From: a virus
Virus record (IMG/VR): IMGVR_UViG_3300022918_000005
Coordinates: 1 to 45,293 of that record
Direction: 5' to 3' (one strand)
Length of the DNA stretch: 45,293 nucleotides
This document shows positions 770 to 45,293 of the stretch, piece after piece. The translations under genes were made by a program, and so were the position numbers. The notes under the pieces were generated by a model. The model had not been told where the DNA came from. It made no database searches and saw only the letters and a list, made by a program, of their open reading frames with translations. Numbering within the stretch: position 1 is the stretch's first letter; each line of letters opens with the position of its first letter.

Positions 770-840
770 GTTCTGTTGTCCTTGTAAAAATTTACGTCTT
801 GATGTTCTGTTTGTTTTATTTTGCAACTTGAGGTGCTTGA

Positions 841-960
841 CTCTTGACTTGACACCCTGTCTTCTAGACAGGGGTTAGTCAAAGTCAAAAGTCAAACAGC
901 TAACCTGACCTTTGACTTTTGACTTTGACCTAATAAAACACGTCAAAAGTCAAGTCAAGT
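841..960. other. Iteron-like repeat cluster, candidate replication origin
   Basis: An AT-rich non-coding stretch between the primase-helicase and HNH genes. It is dense in GTCAAAAGTCAA-type units on both strands: 878-896 and 911-929 form a perfect 19-bp inverted repeat with a 14-nt loop, and further units lie at 942-959 and 843-853. A separate hairpin CCCTGTC/GACAGGG sits at 855-861/867-873. Repeated short units beside a replication gene are typical of origins where an initiator binds; a regulatory array is the other option. Confidence 0.5.
930..958 (-). promoter_or_regulatory. Candidate leftward sigma70-type promoter
   Basis: On the minus strand TTGACT (953-958) and TATTAG (930-935) are 17 bp apart, inside the repeat cluster. 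It would transcribe the HNH gene and the late genes beyond. The many TTGACT-like repeats make chance matches to a -35 element likely, so this is tentative. Confidence 0.35.
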
Positions 961-964
961 GTAA

Positions 965-3166
965 TTATTCGCACGCAGTTTTCGGCAAACTAAGTACGCC
1001 TTGGATCTCGATCACCTCGCCTCGATCGATCATCTTGCGCAATGGGCGGGTGATAAGGGCCTTCCAGCTGGCACTTTCAACGCCGGTTGCCGGCAGTGGG
1101 GTGATGGCCCTGACGTCATCACAAAAGGTATCCATCTCGACTTCGCCCGACAGGTAGGTGGCCAACTGCTCCAGTATCCGGGCTTCTACCTTGCTCGCCT
1201 TGGACTTCGGTTTGTCGGAGTCCGGCGCCGAATCGGCCAGGTGCTCGACCACGCACGAGGTGATGTCCTCGCCGTCCTCGTCCTCCCCCAAAGGCACCGT
1301 ATGCAACTGGAAGCCGAACTGCTTGCCGTCCTCGCCGTCCTTCTGCTTGGTGACCTTGGCGCCGCGTGTCTTGGTGTTGCTGGTGACCTGGATCTCGGTG
1401 TCCACCGCTGCACGTAGCGCGGAGCTGCCGCGCGCGCCGGCGGCGTCGTCCTTACCGCTGTGGTGGACGAGGATGACGGTGGCCTTTGTCCTGCTCTGGA
1501 TCTTCGCGCACTGGGCCACCACTTCGCCCACGTCCTTGGCATCGTTCTCGTTGCCGCCGACCATTACGCGAGCGTAGGTGTCCATGACGATGAAGGAGAT
1601 AGGTCCGAAGGCTTTCAGGTCTTCGATGAGCTCGTCCACCTGCAACTTGTCGCGGAGGTTCGGCGCATTGGCGATAAGCCCCATACCCAGCTCGGACGGG
1701 GCCACGTCGTGCTGCTCGCAATACGCCTCCAGCCGATTGCGAAAGCCCCCAGCGCCCTCGGCCACTACGTACACTCCACGGCCCTGCACCACCCGCGCAC
1801 CGCGCCACGGCAGGCCGCGCGCAATGGCCGCGCACATATCGAAGGTGAAGAACGATTTTCCCGATCCGCTGGCGCCGTAGACCATCACGAGGCTTTTCTG
1901 TGGCAGCACGCCTTTGATCAACCACTTGGGCGCCGGCCGTCGCAAGAACTGCTCGGGGGTCTGCGGGGCGAACCGGCGCGACTTGATCGGCGCCAGGTCG
2001 CGGCCGACTACTTCGGCGTCTGGATCGGGCCCGAGATCGTCGAACTCGTCCGAGCCGGCCACCGCCTGCGGCTCGCCGACGGACATCTCGGGCGTGCCCC
2101 CGCCGAGCAAATCCTCCAGCGTCGGTTCGCTTTCCGGCTCGGCGTCATCGTCAAGATCCATATCGTCAAAAGACAGATTCAGATCGTCGCGGATCGCCTT
2201 GGCCTTGGCCTCGCCAGCGCCGGCACTGTGTTTCCACAAGTAGCGCAACGCCTTATCGTAATCCTGGCCGCGATGGTTGAGGGCGATCTCCAACGCGAAC
2301 TCGTTCGATTCCAAAAGCGAAAAAATCTCTTGCCGATTGCACCCCGAGCGGCCGAGCTCAACAGCCACCCTAAACAGCACGCGCGAATTGTCCGTCGTAC
2401 CCACCGGCGCGCCTTCCGCAAAGAAGTTTGCCACGTTGGGGGTGAGCTCCAAGTCGGACAAATCCGGCATGTCCATGGCGGAAAGAAGCGGCGGCAGGTG
2501 CAAATCCAGCACGTCGGCGCTTTGCAGCTTCTTCCGGTACTTCGCCACCAGAACGTCGACCGAGCCCGCGCGCGGCGCCCGCACGTCTTTCGGCGCGCCG
2601 TCTATGTACTGCCCGGTGATGGTGACGAACCGGGCCTTAACGCCGCCATATATCTCCACGCCCTCATCGATATTGATGCAGTCGCGGGCCAGGGAATACT
2701 CGGCCACGGCGCGCAACCCGGTGCCGGACGGCGACACCTCGGCATATGTGTCCAGCTGGGCGAGCACCTCAGCGGCCCACGGTTCGATTACGCCGGTCAG
2801 CGGGTCGCGGCAATGGTCGAGGTCGACGCCGACGAAGCGGCCGGGCTCGAAGGCGTCGGCGGCGGAGCCCTCGGTCTTGTCGCCGGTCAGCACATAGCCC
2901 ACGCCGGCGAACTTGTCCGGCGCGGCCAGGTAAGCGGCCATGGCGGCATCGAACGAAGTCCACCCGCGCGTCGAGTTATTGGCCAGCTTGAAAGCAGGAC
3001 GATCGGCGCGATACGGGATCTTCCCGTACTTGCCTTGGCCGCCGAGCGCTTTGGGGTTCCAGACGGCGGCCCACGGCGCCCAGCGGCGTTCGGCTTTCAG
3101 CGCGGCCGGAATATTTTCAGGGATTACGGGCAGGATCGGCGGCAGTTGGGCGGGCGTGGTCATCAT
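965..3166 (-). CDS. Bifunctional primase-polymerase / AAA helicase (replication protein)
   Basis: A 733-residue fusion. Residues about 20-215 look like an archaeo-eukaryotic primase-type domain: FVGVDLDHC (Asp115, Asp117), SPSGTGLR at about 145, and GGVKARFVTITGQ at about 174. Residues about 330-385 are a very acidic linker. Residues about 405-620 are a RepA/KaiC-like ATPase: Walker A GASGSGKS (431-438), Walker B FIVMDT (Asp529) and VILVHHSGK at about 564. The protein probably primes and unwinds phage DNA together with the PolA on the other arm. The start overlaps the stop of the upstream nuclease gene by ATGA. The nearby repeat cluster at 841-960 fits a replication origin. Family assignment is strong; exact polymerase activity is not shown by sequence. 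Confidence 0.9.
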   Translation of the reverse strand: MMTTPAQLPPILPVIPENIPAALKAERRWAPWAAVWNPKALGGQGKYGKIPYRADRPAFKLANNSTRGWTSFDAAMAAYLAAPDKFAGVGYVLTGDKTEGSAADAFEPGRFVGVDLDHCRDPLTGVIEPWAAEVLAQLDTYAEVSPSGTGLRAVAEYSLARDCINIDEGVEIYGGVKARFVTITGQYIDGAPKDVRAPRAGSVDVLVAKYRKKLQSADVLDLHLPPLLSAMDMPDLSDLELTPNVANFFAEGAPVGTTDNSRVLFRVAVELGRSGCNRQEIFSLLESNEFALEIALNHRGQDYDKALRYLWKHSAGAGEAKAKAIRDDLNLSFDDMDLDDDAEPESEPTLEDLLGGGTPEMSVGEPQAVAGSDEFDDLGPDPDAEVVGRDLAPIKSRRFAPQTPEQFLRRPAPKWLIKGVLPQKSLVMVYGASGSGKSFFTFDMCAAIARGLPWRGARVVQGRGVYVVAEGAGGFRNRLEAYCEQHDVAPSELGMGLIANAPNLRDKLQVDELIEDLKAFGPISFIVMDTYARVMVGGNENDAKDVGEVVAQCAKIQSRTKATVILVHHSGKDDAAGARGSSALRAAVDTEIQVTSNTKTRGAKVTKQKDGEDGKQFGFQLHTVPLGEDEDGEDITSCVVEHLADSAPDSDKPKSKASKVEARILEQLATYLSGEVEMDTFCDDVRAITPLPATGVESASWKALITRPLRKMIDRGEVIEIQGVLSLPKTACE

Positions 3167-8447: not shown

Positions 8448-8921
8448 GTGTGGGCGGATATTGCGGGCTACGAGGGCCGCTACCAGGTTGACCGGGCAGG
8501 CCAAGTGCGGAACGTCAAGACCGGCCGTATTTTAAAGGCCCATGTGTTTCGCAACCACTACGTAGGCATCATTCTGGGTAGGGGCAGCAAGACGCACTTG
8601 GTGCACCGACTGGTGGCTACGGCTTTCATACCCGGCGATACGTCGCTGCAGGTCAACCACAAGAACGGCAACCGTGGCGACAACCGAGCGGAAAATCTGG
8701 AGTGGCTTTCTTGCTCAGATAATCATCGGCACAGCTACCGCGAGCTGAAGCGTAAAAAGCATTGCCTTACTAAAACTGTTTTACTTTCAAAAGGGGATTC
8801 GACCATGCAATTCGATTCCGTAGTATTGGCTGCTAAAGCACTGGGCGTGGTGCCCGGTTCGGTAGCATCGGCCGAGAACAAAAGCCACCGGTGCCGTGGC
8901 TGGGTGGTGTCCTATGTCTGA
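8448..8921 (+). CDS. NUMOD4/HNH homing endonuclease
   Basis: 157 residues with GTG start. [20 protein letters not shown] at the N-terminus is the NUMOD4 motif. [12 protein letters not shown], then [20 protein letters not shown], is the HNH_3 type core. The C-terminal segment ([17 protein letters not shown]...GW) resembles a NUMOD1 DNA-binding repeat. It is a paralogue of the gene at 12462-12995. Such genes spread by cutting alleles that lack them. It overlaps the next gene by 8 bases. Confidence 0.88.
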
Positions 8922-15307: not shown

Positions 15308-15340
15308 CTTGCACAAGTAAATACTTGCGTGTATAGTTCT
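15308..15340 (+). promoter_or_regulatory. Repeated rightward promoter/operator, copy 1
   Basis: -35 TTGCAC (15309-15314), 17-bp spacer, -10 TATAGT (15332-15337). CTTGCA at 15308 and CTTGCG at 15324 are 16 bp apart, as in the leftward promoter. The 33 bases are identical to copies at 17328 and 20702; with copy 3 the identity extends to 39 bases (from 15302). It starts directly after the stop of the polA remnant and precedes the 46-aa gene. Confidence 0.75.
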
Positions 15341-17134: not shown

Positions 17135-17340
17135 CCCGCTGGAAGCCGACCGGAGACGGCGGTATGGAGCCGTCGCCTACTGGGGCATGGGTGCGCGTGC
17201 AGGAGATAGCTCAGCGCGACGCCCGCATCACCGAACTTGAAGCGGCCTTCGACAAGCTGGCCCAGTGCAAAGGCCGCTACCACACCGAGGCCAATTTCAA
17301 GGTGCTAATCGAGGTGCGCAATAAAACCTTGCACAAGTAA
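17131..17340 (+). CDS. Small coiled-coil protein, 69 aa
   Basis: 69 residues from GTG overlapping the nuclease stop (GTGA). RVQEIAQRDARITELEAAFD is a probable coiled coil. Its last codons (TLHK, stop) lie within the -35 region of the promoter at 17328, so the promoter sequence doubles as coding sequence. Confidence 0.65.
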   Translation: MTRWKPTGDGGMEPSPTGAWVRVQEIAQRDARITELEAAFDKLAQCKGRYHTEANFKVLIEVRNKTLHK

Positions 17341-17360
17341 ATACTTGCGTGTATAGTTCT
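17328..17360 (+). promoter_or_regulatory. Repeated rightward promoter/operator, copy 2
   Basis: Same 33 bases as at 15308 and 20702: -35 TTGCAC 17329-17334, -10 TATAGT 17352-17357. Begins inside the end of the upstream gene and drives the gene at 17388. Confidence 0.75.
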
Positions 17361-18040: not shown

Positions 18041-18389
18041 CCTGACCGGTGCCCAGCTGGACTACCACACCGCCCGCGCCGAGGGCGTGCCGGCTGACCA
18101 GTTGGAGATCCGCGCCGCCGGCACTCTGTGCGTGCGCAACCTGCGCGGCACCCCCGGCAAGATCCTGGCCGTCCAGGTGCTCGACTACAGCACCAACTGG
18201 GCGTTGACCGGTCCGCTGGTGGAGAAGCATGGCATCTGCCTGTCGGTGTGCTCGGGCGACGGCGAAGGATGGGCGGCTTGGCTGGACTCACCGAGCACCC
18301 AGTACGGCCCTGACGCGCTGATCGCCATCTGCCGCGCCGTCGTGCGCGCCGCGTTCGGTGACGAGGTGGGGGATTTGCCATGCGCGTGA
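18027..18389 (+). CDS. DUF2591 / NinX-like protein
   Basis: 120 residues. VDLTGAQLDYHTARAEG at the start, DYSTNWALTGPLVEKHGI in the middle and AICRAVVRAAFGDEV at the end are the pattern of DUF2591, the NinX family found in lambdoid phages near the ninR genes. Function of the family is unknown. Frequent in early regions of Burkholderiales phages. Confidence 0.85.
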   Translation: MRTVDLTGAQLDYHTARAEGVPADQLEIRAAGTLCVRNLRGTPGKILAVQVLDYSTNWALTGPLVEKHGICLSVCSGDGEGWAAWLDSPSTQYGPDALIAICRAVVRAAFGDEVGDLPCA

Positions 18390-20701: not shown

Positions 20702-20734
20702 CTTGCACAAGTAAATACTTGCGTGTATAGTTCT
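20702..20734 (+). promoter_or_regulatory. Repeated rightward promoter/operator, copy 3
   Basis: -35 TTGCAC 20703-20708, -10 TATAGT 20726-20731, same 33 bases as copies 1 and 2. The bases after the -10 (CTACTCATGGGC) match the leftward promoter. An ATG at 20739 lies eight bases after the -10, at or next to the expected transcription start. Confidence 0.75.
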
Positions 20735-35176: not shown

Positions 35177-37084
35177 CTAGTCCTTTGGAGAAGACCAGTT
35201 GGCGACTTGAATAGTCACACCACCAGCACCGGCAGACGCCGCTGTCACGTTGACTTGGTATCCCGTTACAGTACCGGCGGCCACTTTAAATTTCGGTGTT
35301 TTCACCCTAACTTTAAATACAGACGGAAGATTTATACCGGAACTTGAGTTAGCGCACCATTGATAATTGTAATTAACGCCGCCAATGGTGTAGTAAAACG
35401 AAATAGCGAGAGAATTTATATTAGACCCGCCTGAAACCTTCAATTCAAGTTCCGTATGCAGCACATCACCCGCTGCGATTTGATTTGTAAATGGTAAAGC
35501 GCTACGAATAAACGCTGTCTGGCCGCTACCGGTAAAAGTGGCGGCCAGCACTTGATTGTTACCGAGAGCGTCACCGTCATTGGCAACCGTACGAGGAACC
35601 AGTGACGCGACCGCTGTGGCTGCACCTGTGGTGTCGACAGCCCACCCAAAGCCAACCGAGGTACCCGCGCCGCTCCCCTCTGTTACGCTAGCCCCTTTGG
35701 TGCCGCCGCCGGTCACAAACAACGGGTTTCGCGTAACGTTCTTGCTACTGGAATCCAGTTCGTAAGTGTCCGCAGCCGTAGACACCAAGGGGATCGCAGG
35801 AATACCCAGCCGCTCCAGAATCGGGTCCAGTACAAGCGAGTACATCGAATACGCACCCAGCGCATTTGGGTGAACCGTATCGGCCAACTTATTCAGATCG
35901 GCCTCGCCAGTGGTAGACGACGGATTTATCACCGCTTTAGCATAATCCGCAAGAATGATTCGCGAGTCGGTCGTGGCGTAGGCGCGAACCATGGTATTGA
36001 ACTGGCGGTTACGTTGCGCCCCTGTGAAGCCACCAACGACTTCCGAAAACGAAACATCGGCCGAGCTAATCGGCAGCAGCGTACCGAGAATTACGCGCAC
36101 GCCTTGCGAAAGTATGTCATCCACTAAAAGCTTAAGCTTTGCAAAAGCGGCGTCCGCCGGTTCTTTAGCGCCTCGCAAATTATTAGTGCCGATAAGAAGG
36201 TGCACAATATCCGGACTCTTTGCGTAAATATCTCGGGCACGGCGCGCATATAATCCGTCGATCGTTTCGCTGCCGAGTCCAGCATTGAAGACCATTTGAA
36301 TAAAGCGACCTGTAGCGTAAGTAAAAAATCCTTGGTTGGAATAGCCCACACCCCGCATAACCTGCGATCCAGTACAAGCGTTTACCGAGGGTGCTGTATT
36401 GGCGACAACAGCAAAGTTATCCTTATCGATTACCCGCGACACGAGGTAAGGCGCGTTGTATTCCGTAGGGGTACCTACTTGAATAGTGGATTGATCTCCG
36501 ACTGCTAAACCGTGGGTGACTAGATTAATCAAAATCTCCCCGTTCGAGTAGGTGACGCTGGCCGGGGTAGCTGCCACAAAATTCTGCGATGTAATTGAAT
36601 CCCCAGCCAGAACCAATCGTACGGGGGCAATTTTGTTAGCCGAAGCTACCACCGCCAACACCGAATCCGCCGTCTTCGCCACCAGCGAGCCGGTCGTGCA
36701 CTTGATCTCGACGGTGAAGTCGCCTTCGAACGGGCCAACCGCCAGCGCCGTGGCGCCGATCGTCGTCAACGCCCCCACAGCCGCGCCAGAGGCGTCGTAT
36801 CGCTGGTACGTGCCCGTGGTGCCGGCCGTCGGCGTGATCGTCAGGGCGGACCCTTCCGTCAGCGGCACGGTGGCCTTGCGATTGGCGATCAGGCTGACCG
36901 TGCCGCGCTTCTGCACCGCCGGCTGAATCATCACCGGTTGCCGCTCGCGATACGCCACGGTGCCGCCGGTCAGGGTCGCGGTGGCGTTGCCGCCCGCAAT
37001 CAGCGCGGTCTCCAGCGCCGAGTCCAGCGTGATGATGGACTGAGGCGAGAAGCCGTCGTACGTCGAGAGCAGGCGGATGGTCAT
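35177..37084 (-). CDS. Virion-associated protein with SGNH/GDSL hydrolase domain
   Basis: 635 residues, encoded between capsid and connector genes. Residues about 1-145 are a GC-rich, beta-type N-terminal part, probably the virion attachment domain. Residues about 155-425 are an SGNH hydrolase: LVLAGDSIT (Ser163), VFNAGLGS (Gly269), LLIGTNN (Asn301) and DTVHP (Asp402, His405). Inserted at about 177-245 is HGLAVGDQSTIQVGTPTEYN, resembling a domain common in phage fibres. The last 200 residues are beta-rich. DNA downstream of codon about 142 is clearly poorer in GC than its neighbours. A deacetylase/esterase acting on surface polysaccharide is likely. Confidence 0.82.
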   Translation of the reverse strand: MTIRLLSTYDGFSPQSIITLDSALETALIAGGNATATLTGGTVAYRERQPVMIQPAVQKRGTVSLIANRKATVPLTEGSALTITPTAGTTGTYQRYDASGAAVGALTTIGATALAVGPFEGDFTVEIKCTTGSLVAKTADSVLAVVASANKIAPVRLVLAGDSITSQNFVAATPASVTYSNGEILINLVTHGLAVGDQSTIQVGTPTEYNAPYLVSRVIDKDNFAVVANTAPSVNACTGSQVMRGVGYSNQGFFTYATGRFIQMVFNAGLGSETIDGLYARRARDIYAKSPDIVHLLIGTNNLRGAKEPADAAFAKLKLLVDDILSQGVRVILGTLLPISSADVSFSEVVGGFTGAQRNRQFNTMVRAYATTDSRIILADYAKAVINPSSTTGEADLNKLADTVHPNALGAYSMYSLVLDPILERLGIPAIPLVSTAADTYELDSSSKNVTRNPLFVTGGGTKGASVTEGSGAGTSVGFGWAVDTTGAATAVASLVPRTVANDGDALGNNQVLAATFTGSGQTAFIRSALPFTNQIAAGDVLHTELELKVSGGSNINSLAISFYYTIGGVNYNYQWCANSSSGINLPSVFKVRVKTPKFKVAAGTVTGYQVNVTAASAGAGGVTIQVANWSSPKD

Positions 37085-43345: not shown

Positions 43346-43508
43346 GGTGTAAGTTTCAGGTCAGCAAGTTGTGGGTTAGAGTTTGAAAAGAGGCTCGGCA
43401 CGGTCCTTACCGAAAGCAACTACTTGCACTTTTGACAACCCCCTCGGGTGTTGCAGAAAAACAACGTTGCTCGGGAGGAATGTTTCTCGGATGACAACTC
43501 GCATAGGG
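43346..43508. other. Non-coding gap upstream of TerS
   Basis: A 163-bp gap with several copies of GCAAC/GTTGC: GCAACGTTGC-like palindromes near 43467-43473 and 43525-43534, and a GTTGCT-TTTT-AGCAAC hairpin at 43515-43530 at the end of the upstream gene. On the minus strand TTGTCA and TTGTTT are possible -35 boxes, but no clear -10 follows. A late promoter, a terminator or a packaging signal could lie here; I cannot decide. Confidence 0.35.
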
Positions 43509-43940
43509 TTACGTGTTGCTTTTTAGCAACGTTGCAGGTTCTGGCGTGCGGCCGCGCTGCTGTGCTTCGTCGAGCATTTCCCACGGCACTGCACGTTCAA
43601 GGCCATCCGCCACCATGATAGCGCCCCGCAGCGCGTGAGGGATAACAGGTTTGCGCATCCACAGATGTGGGTAGGGCACGCCGGGGCGGGCGCGTCGCGC
43701 GATCTCGTTCGTCTCGACGTCGCCGGCCACCTCGACCTGCATCGTATCGGCAAACGCCTTGACGCCCGCCGCGCAGCGCGTCATGTACTCGCCCGGCTCG
43801 TCGACCATCGTCATGGATACGCCACGCGGCAGCGCGATGACGATGTAGTCGCCGCCCATCTGCCGCTGCGCCTCGGCGCGCATGTTGTCCACCTGGGGCT
43901 GCGTCAGGGCCGTGTCGAAGGTCAGGAGCACGATGCGCAT
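43509..43940 (-). CDS. Hypothetical protein, 143 aa
   Basis: 143 residues, begins MRIVLLTFDTALTQPQVDNM. N-terminal alpha/beta segment, an RAEAQRQMGGDYIVIALPRG stretch, then a C-terminal part with VPYPHLWMRKPVIPHALRG. Function unknown. It starts in a TGATG overlap with the upstream gene and precedes the terminase genes. Confidence 0.68.
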   Translation of the reverse strand: MRIVLLTFDTALTQPQVDNMRAEAQRQMGGDYIVIALPRGVSMTMVDEPGEYMTRCAAGVKAFADTMQVEVAGDVETNEIARRARPGVPYPHLWMRKPVIPHALRGAIMVADGLERAVPWEMLDEAQQRGRTPEPATLLKSNT

Positions 43941-44546: not shown

Positions 44547-45206
44547 TCACGCGGCGACCACAACTACCCGTGCGGGCGCGCCGGCCACGTTCGTGGTGCC
44601 CGCCAGCAGCACCTCCAGGCCCAGCACGGTGACCGCCGCGCGCTGCACGAGGCGCAACGAACAGCCCGTGGTGGTGCTGGTCACCCTCGTCCACACCTGA
44701 TTGCTGGCCGTGGGCGGCTCGGGCTGGATGCTGGGGGTGGCCGCGAAGGCCGACGTGTAGGTGATCGCCACCAGACCATTGGCGTCGGTCGTGCCTGTGT
44801 AGGTGTCGATGCGCTTGGCATCCGCGCCGGCCGTGCCAGTGTTGCCCTTGGCGCCGGCCGGGCCGACATCGCCCTGCGGGCCTTGAGCACCAGTCAAGCC
44901 AATCGGACCTTGCGAACCGGTATCGCCCTTTGCGCCTTGGGTTCCCGCAACGCCTGCGGCGCCAGTCGCACCGGTCAAGCCAATCGGGCCTTGCGCACCG
45001 ACAGCGCCCGCCGCCCCTGTCGCACCGGTCGATCCCTGCGGCCCGGATGGCCCCGCCACGCCGCGATCGCCCTGCGGTCCTTGGCTACCTACCGGCCCGG
45101 TTGCTCCGGTCGCTCCTGTAGGCCCTTGAGCGCCGCTGCCTGCCGGCAGATCCTTGCGCAGGCGGGCGACGATCCGCTTGAAAAACATGTTTTCGTCGAG
45201 GTTCAT
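44547..45206 (-). CDS. Collagen-like fibre protein
   Basis: 219 residues. The N-terminus (MNLDENMFFKRIVARLRKDL) is short and basic. Residues about 22-120 are about 30 Gly-X-Y triplets (GPTGATGATGPVGSQGPQG...), a collagen-like trimeric rod. The last 95 residues are beta-structured (GTTDANGLVAITYTSAFAAT, TTTGCSLRLVQRAAVTV), a probable trimerising head or binding tip. It is encoded before the terminase genes, far from the tail genes, so a head fibre is as likely as a tail fibre. Start at 45206 by ATGA overlap. A very GC-rich, repeat-prone gene. Confidence 0.88.
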   Translation of the reverse strand: MNLDENMFFKRIVARLRKDLPAGSGAQGPTGATGATGPVGSQGPQGDRGVAGPSGPQGSTGATGAAGAVGAQGPIGLTGATGAAGVAGTQGAKGDTGSQGPIGLTGAQGPQGDVGPAGAKGNTGTAGADAKRIDTYTGTTDANGLVAITYTSAFAATPSIQPEPPTASNQVWTRVTSTTTGCSLRLVQRAAVTVLGLEVLLAGTTNVAGAPARVVVVAA

Positions 45207-45293
45207 GGCGCGTCCAATCCGGCCACCAGGGACCAGGCCGAGTCGCCCATCCACACGTTGTTCGCTGCCCACGTCGAGGTCTGGCGGACAAAG
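45167..45293. repeat. Terminal direct repeat, right copy (circular contig overlap)
   Basis: Identical to 1-127. Joining the ends here gives an uninterrupted gene order and a unit of about 45,166 bp. Confidence 0.9.
45203..45293 (-). CDS. Partial duplicate: C-terminal part of the 109-aa hypothetical protein
   Basis: Repeats the last 30 codons of the gene that is complete at 37-366 (ending WSLVAGLDAP). Cut by the end of the window. Not a separate gene. Confidence 0.8.
   Translation of the reverse strand, partial: FVRQTSTWAANNVWMGDSAWSLVAGLDAP

Follow-up and report, generated by a model that had tools for sequence, protein, structure and literature searches.

A probable iteron-type replication origin behind a fused primase-helicase gene in a phage genome, with repeat units that appear to follow the winged helix of the initiator

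The cluster of short repeats behind the primase-helicase gene of this virus is probably the replication origin of the phage, its repeats serving as iterons that are read by the phage's own fused initiator; from the comparison of sequences we put the probability of this reading at roughly 0.78. The DNA analysed, hereafter the window, is the whole of IMG/VR virus record IMGVR_UViG_3300022918_000005 (45,293 bases). Since its first and last 127 bases are identical (an exact terminal direct repeat at 1-127 and 45167-45293), the window is probably a complete, circularly assembled phage genome. In it, a cluster of short repeats stands beside an initiator gene in AT-rich DNA, which is the arrangement of an iteron-type origin. 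The reading as iterons and origin is well supported because the position and layout of the array are conserved, its unit varies with the recognition helix of the initiator, and winged helix and array are exchanged as a block.

The initial annotation had placed at 841-960 a repeat cluster containing a 19-bp perfect inverted repeat with further copies of its unit; all of this is present, with a true extent of 837-958. Twelve TTGAC/GTCAA pentamers are packed within 125 bp in four triads whose orientation alternates about a GC hairpin. Triad A (837-853, plus strand) has TTGAC at 837, 844 and 849, triad B (878-895, minus) GTCAA at 878, 884 and 891, triad C (912-929, plus) TTGAC at 912, 919 and 925, and triad D (942-958, minus) GTCAA at 942, 949 and 954. 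The middle pair of triads makes up the perfect inverted repeat (878-896/911-929), B forming its left arm and C its right, and GTCAAAAGTCAA is found at 884, at 912 (on the minus strand) and at 942. Read along the genes, on the minus strand, the array thus consists of three forward units, three inverted, three forward, the GC hairpin and three inverted. The hairpin itself lies between triads A and B (855-873, minus strand, where it reads CCCTGTCT-AGA-AGACAGGG). An AT-rich box flanks the array on either side, GTAAATTTTTACA towards the HNH gene (783-795, minus) and GCGAATAATTAC at the other end (961-972, minus), where it overlaps the stop codon of the primase-helicase gene. The AT-rich setting beside a replication gene was likewise borne out: G+C is 36-40 per 100-bp window around the array, as against about 60-65% in most 1-kb windows, and the array follows the primase-helicase gene, past its stop codon at 965, instead of preceding it. 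Units this short might be suspected of arising by chance or from a low-complexity AT-rich stretch, a reading whose probability is negligible: 300 first-order Markov simulations of the window gave maxima of 2-4 pentamers per 125 bp against the 12 observed, and relatives carry an array at the same position, which together refute it. Outside the array, the densest 150-bp stretch of the window holds three pentamers. Elsewhere in the window, three identical GCAAGTATTTAC motifs (15317-15328, 17337-17348 and 20711-20722, minus strand) are near variants of the array's AT box and could possibly be a shared regulatory or replication element.

The gene preceding the array (965-3166, minus strand) encodes a protein of 733 residues with matches to phage primase and helicase families. 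Its N-terminus, an AEP prim-pol, matches solved phage and mobile-element primases in the PDB (E about 1e-10), and its helicase is of the RepA type (AAA_25, E 1e-41). An AlphaFold2 model (mean pLDDT 85.4, from a 38-row alignment) retrieved the NrS-1 prim-pol and the RSF1010 RepA helicase (1g8y, 1olo, 1nlf) in Foldseek. The C-terminus is modelled as a winged helix: residues 656-733 (coded at 968-1201, minus) form three helices and a two-stranded wing, and this helix-helix-helix-strand-strand fold recurs when the C-terminus is modelled separately (mean pLDDT 75.7). When the isolated domain was searched with Foldseek, winged-helix chains were among the weak matches (best E 0.024) and nothing fell under E 0.001, so the assignment rests on the models and on the rows of VIA-align 2, where the domain aligns with Fur (9ire_B, Z 9.4, rmsd 1.5, 65 residues) and also with cullin and MCM winged helices. 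By domain content, the protein therefore has all three parts of PrimQH-like initiators: an AEP primase, a RepA-type helicase and a C-terminal (modelled) winged helix. In tblastn searches of named phages, the window initiator matched 1170 records and that of another locus (L013) 860, none of which covered 80% of the query.

Comparison with relatives carries most of the argument. The first three relatives found (46-57% identity) have a similar layout in the same gap built from other units, GCTTCA in L004, GTACAC in L005 and TCCCACA in L006. The set was widened by five further viral scans, one genome scan and 399 genomes of one order (19 matched), two of the scans contributing 80 of 388 and 80 of 550 candidate relatives. 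This yielded 375 loci, 323 of them with a closed initiator frame and 104 unique once duplicates, loci whose downstream sequence was shorter than 150 nt and hits that stopped matching short of profile position 600 had been dropped. Within 220 nt after the initiator stop, 81 of the 104 unique loci have a 6-mer array at p<=0.01 against dinucleotide shuffles. The best 6-mer reaches at least seven copies after the stop in 67 of the 104 loci, as opposed to 5 of 1854 windows drawn at random from these loci, and at least five copies in 80 of 104 against 24 of 1854; its median count is 8 in the 220 nt downstream versus 3 in the 220 nt upstream of the frame. Twenty of the 104 loci are not significant directly after the stop at p<=0.02. 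In nine of these, an array of 8-9 copies begins further on, 285-403 nt past the stop codon, and in one the array overlaps the gene end; the other ten show no array recognisable by 6-mer count, some of them having degenerate units by eye. The unit varies by lineage (GCTTCA, GTACAC, TGCAAC, TGGATC, GCCACA, CGGGAA and others). Two further elements recur among 47 representatives. In 23 of them, and in 1 of 470 resampled controls, there is a hairpin whose stem has 4 bp or more and whose loop consists of T/A, CCCC-TTTA-GGGG being its usual form. An AT-rich box matching GYAAAWWWTTAC with one mismatch or none lies between -60 and +360 of the stop in 33 of them and in 14 of 470 controls. The hairpin count uses a stricter pattern than the earlier hairpin list, which came from a greedy search that picked another stem for some loci. 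The GC hairpin of the window is the positional counterpart of this apex, with a different loop; having TCT/AGA in place of TTTA, it fails the strict pattern.

The repeat unit tracks the C-terminal winged helix of the initiator, and above all its recognition helix, rather than the helicase core. From 84 loci with arrays at p<=0.02, 77 had enough of the helicase and C-terminus, and thinning at 25% C-terminal difference left 47 representatives (35 at 50%). In partial Mantel tests on the 47, a type of test that removes shared ancestry incompletely, the winged helix correlates with the unit given the helicase core (r=0.26, 0 of 2000 permutations), and the helicase given the winged helix does not reach significance (117 of 2000); with the 35 stricter representatives the figures are 0 and 617 of 2000, respectively. 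A regression of 46 representatives on four protein regions gave, out of 2000, 0 for the recognition helix, 18 for the wing, 65 for the helicase and 540 for helices 1-2. The best predictor of the unit is thus helix H3, residues 698-714, coded at 1025-1075 (minus) in the window. The nearest neighbour shares the unit in 21 of 47 cases by C-terminus and in 11 of 47 by helicase core, compared with 4.7% of all pairs. By eye, recognition helices of the form DNRxRD go with CTTC or TTCC units, DQRKxNV with GCTTC(C)A, DTRPQxARRSL with TGCAAC, KRQTERAQAAI with CGGGAA, and DRRR with GCCACA and CCCACA; this table was compared by eye, the four-region regression being the only statistical test of the link. 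There are exceptions, as some pairs have a unit in common and very different winged helices (e.g. L173/L102).

These results also bear on whether the array is an operator, through which the winged helix or a separate regulator would control transcription of the HNH and fibre genes or of the initiator. The array does have genes of one direction on both sides, TTGAC is similar to a -35 hexamer, and many operators are inverted repeats. We nevertheless consider an operator unlikely, given that a scan of 400-1400 found no promoter-like site and that in the relatives inspected the array stays behind the initiator gene although the next gene varies. A separate regulator would not explain why the unit tracks the initiator's own recognition helix, and up to a dozen units with a conserved hairpin exceed, in our judgement, what an operator needs.

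The region also folds strongly. As single-stranded DNA, the window strand folds at -41.3 kcal/mol versus -14.4 for shuffles (z=-9.8), and as RNA it folds nearly as distinctly (z=-8.6). The RNA fold, along with an inverted layout that is kept in relatives while the sequence changes, could speak for an RNA element, in which a pair of stacked hairpins in the transcript would stabilise the mRNA or regulate it as an attenuator, processing site or terminator. Such pairing would require neither direct repeats within the arms nor irregular spacing of the units, and the identity of the unit follows a DNA-binding helix. The terminator scan returned two terminator-like sites against 1.4 expected, none of them in the array, and the nine weak Rfam matches were all far under gathering scores, so that no family was reached. 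We regard an RNA element as very improbable, and return to the array as an origin.

Close relatives swap the winged helix and the array as a single block of about 450 bp. Among the 219 pairs with 70% or more identity in helicase-core DNA, which overlap in loci and are not independent, 110 have the same unit, 104 different units and 5 neither. In the different-unit pairs, which come from 41 loci, winged-helix DNA averages 47% identity and falls below 65% in 103 of 104, as against 79% in the core and 66% in the downstream flank; in same-unit pairs the winged-helix DNA averages 74%. The pair L133/L127 illustrates the pattern, with core and downstream flank both 90% identical and winged helix and array both 44%, and unit-sharing pairs such as L007/L009 have no dip in identity before the array. 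The window and its nearest relative, L004, are one such case. Their cores are mostly 63-87% identical, and the HNH gene and beyond mostly 77-100%; between these, in a stretch that starts about 270 nt ahead of the stop codon and ends 180 nt past it, identity drops to mostly 33-53%, with flanks mostly at 63-100%. The exchanged cassette of winged helix and array spans 785-1235 (minus strand) in the window. In 17 of the 110 same-unit pairs the winged-helix DNA is less than 55% identical, all of them between members with GCTTCA or GCTTCC units.

Two expectations of the initial annotation fared less well. It had predicted a GC-skew minimum at the array; the raw cumulative minimum lies at 2668 and the detrended minimum at 18198, in a skew that is of small amplitude, confounded by gene orientation and a weak test for a mosaic phage. 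It had also paired the origin with plasmid-like maintenance, in part from the lack of an integrase. Comparison of relatives upholds the iterons and origin, and a search with PF00589 indeed found no integrase in the genome, but this absence is equally expected of a lytic phage. No resolvase (PF00239) was found in the genome either, and the search for a ParA-type partition protein (PF01656) gave nothing above the cut-off, its one sub-threshold P-loop hit lying inside the helicase itself. Plasmid-like maintenance is therefore unsupported, with no ParA-type match and with the same origin type present in loci from bacterial genomes, which are presumably prophages.

In the phage DNA collection, the first 20 kb of the window had no near relative; the sole matches were of the polymerase gene to Bordetella BPP-1-type phages and a short one to a methylase. 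On its other strand the window carries genes for a PolA-type polymerase, a Gp2.5-like SSB, an exonuclease and a further helicase. Downstream of the array, 195 bp from the primase-helicase gene, an HNH endonuclease gene begins (449-769, minus; ATG at 769, longest open reading frame from 826), and it adjoins the array in the closest relatives as well. Odn of ICP1 cuts rival origins, and the HNH endonuclease may act in a like manner. Two other features of the window were recorded. A lipase/esterase-like gene (phrog_6102, 35177-37084, minus) is set between head genes with a G+C of about 54% versus about 63% around it. A conserved stretch rich in GTTGC/GCAAC palindromes, a candidate packaging site, is found at 43430-43540 and in L004 at 8730-8860, near predicted terminase genes in both phages.

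Several known systems resemble parts of this arrangement. Berkner et al. (2014, PMC4234260) describe, directly downstream of the prim-pol/helicase/winged-helix gene of pRN1, a stem-loop of about 100 nt that is essential for replication and is the likely origin, the authors stating that they have no direct evidence for this. Its fold is conserved among relatives while its sequence is not, and the authors extend the comparison to a similar stem-loop that follows the replication gene of phage BIP-1 (PMC4234260). The window shares with pRN1 a large stem-loop directly 3' of the initiator gene whose fold is kept and whose sequence is not, but pRN1 has an SF3 helicase, and the helicase of the window has the AAA_25/RepA fold. 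In the same paper pRN1 is described as lacking iterons. We find TGTCCA twice per arm with 9-nt spacing in its stem (L379, 5080-5185), which is no array of a dozen units, and TGTCAC-like words in similar positions in the stem of pHEN7 (L381); two copies are only suggestive of iterons. BIP-1 has at most three copies of any 6-mer. In the PrimQH family of AEP primases, as presented in the available text of Kazlauskas et al. (2018, PMC5862659), the AEP domain is followed by a helicase, in some members RepA-type, and then by a winged helix at the C-terminus, for which origin recognition has been suggested; that text gives neither the origin sequence nor its coupling to the protein. The oriV of RSF1010, as outlined in PMC4234260, combines a RepA-fold helicase, iterons and hairpin priming sites, but divides the work among three separate proteins, RepA, RepB' and RepC, the last of which reads the iterons. 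A parallel to the exchange is found in the PLE satellites of Vibrio cholerae (PMC8263062), in which the RepA DNA-binding domain varies together with the iteron origin and the two move as one exchangeable module. Cognate pairing of initiator and origin was demonstrated experimentally there, and a phage nuclease imitates the RepA DNA-binding domain to cut the origin. The PLE system differs in that its initiator is of the RepA_N type, its iterons number three and are about 30 bp long, its variants form two groups, and there is no fused primase-helicase.

A working model for the origin is as follows. The winged helix would bind the TTGAC-type units through its recognition helix and would then load the hexameric helicase of RepA type. 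Inverted arrays and the AT-rich boxes beside them may melt or extrude as hairpins, and the N-terminal AEP prim-pol would prime on the strand laid bare in this way, possibly using the conserved apex of the hairpin. Priming by the NrS-1 prim-pol begins at TTTGGTTA and GTG sites (PMC8718748). The phage PolA and Gp2.5-like SSB could then take over. Counting against the origin reading are the GC skew, which turns elsewhere, the 20 of 104 loci without a significant array directly after the stop, the divergent winged helices of some same-unit pairs and the AGA loop of the window hairpin.

Already known or predicted are the kind of origin, the domain order, origin recognition by a winged helix and stem-loop origins located 3' of genes like this one. 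In the open-licence papers searched, we found no description of an array of a dozen units plus hairpin behind AEP-RepA-winged-helix genes, nor of unit switching across phages and prophages, of the link to the recognition helix or of the exchange of cassettes. We tentatively propose, as a conjecture we do not hold to be the likelier case, that a plug-in origin cassette is carried by many different phages and prophages, which form a large group: the last 80 or so codons of the initiator (the winged helix) and the array would swap as a block, restricting each lineage to the copying of its own origin. A readable code would then link the recognition helix to the unit, and the diversity would be driven by competition among co-infecting elements or by nucleases directed at origins. 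Were this so, the sequence would tell where replication starts in this phage group, just behind the stop codon of the primase-helicase gene, and dozens of natural pairs of winged helix and site would form a data set for the DNA-recognition code of a winged-helix family. The exchange of specificity by cassettes, in parallel to the cognate pairing in PLE satellites, would also explain how close relatives avoid copying, or being copied by, each other.
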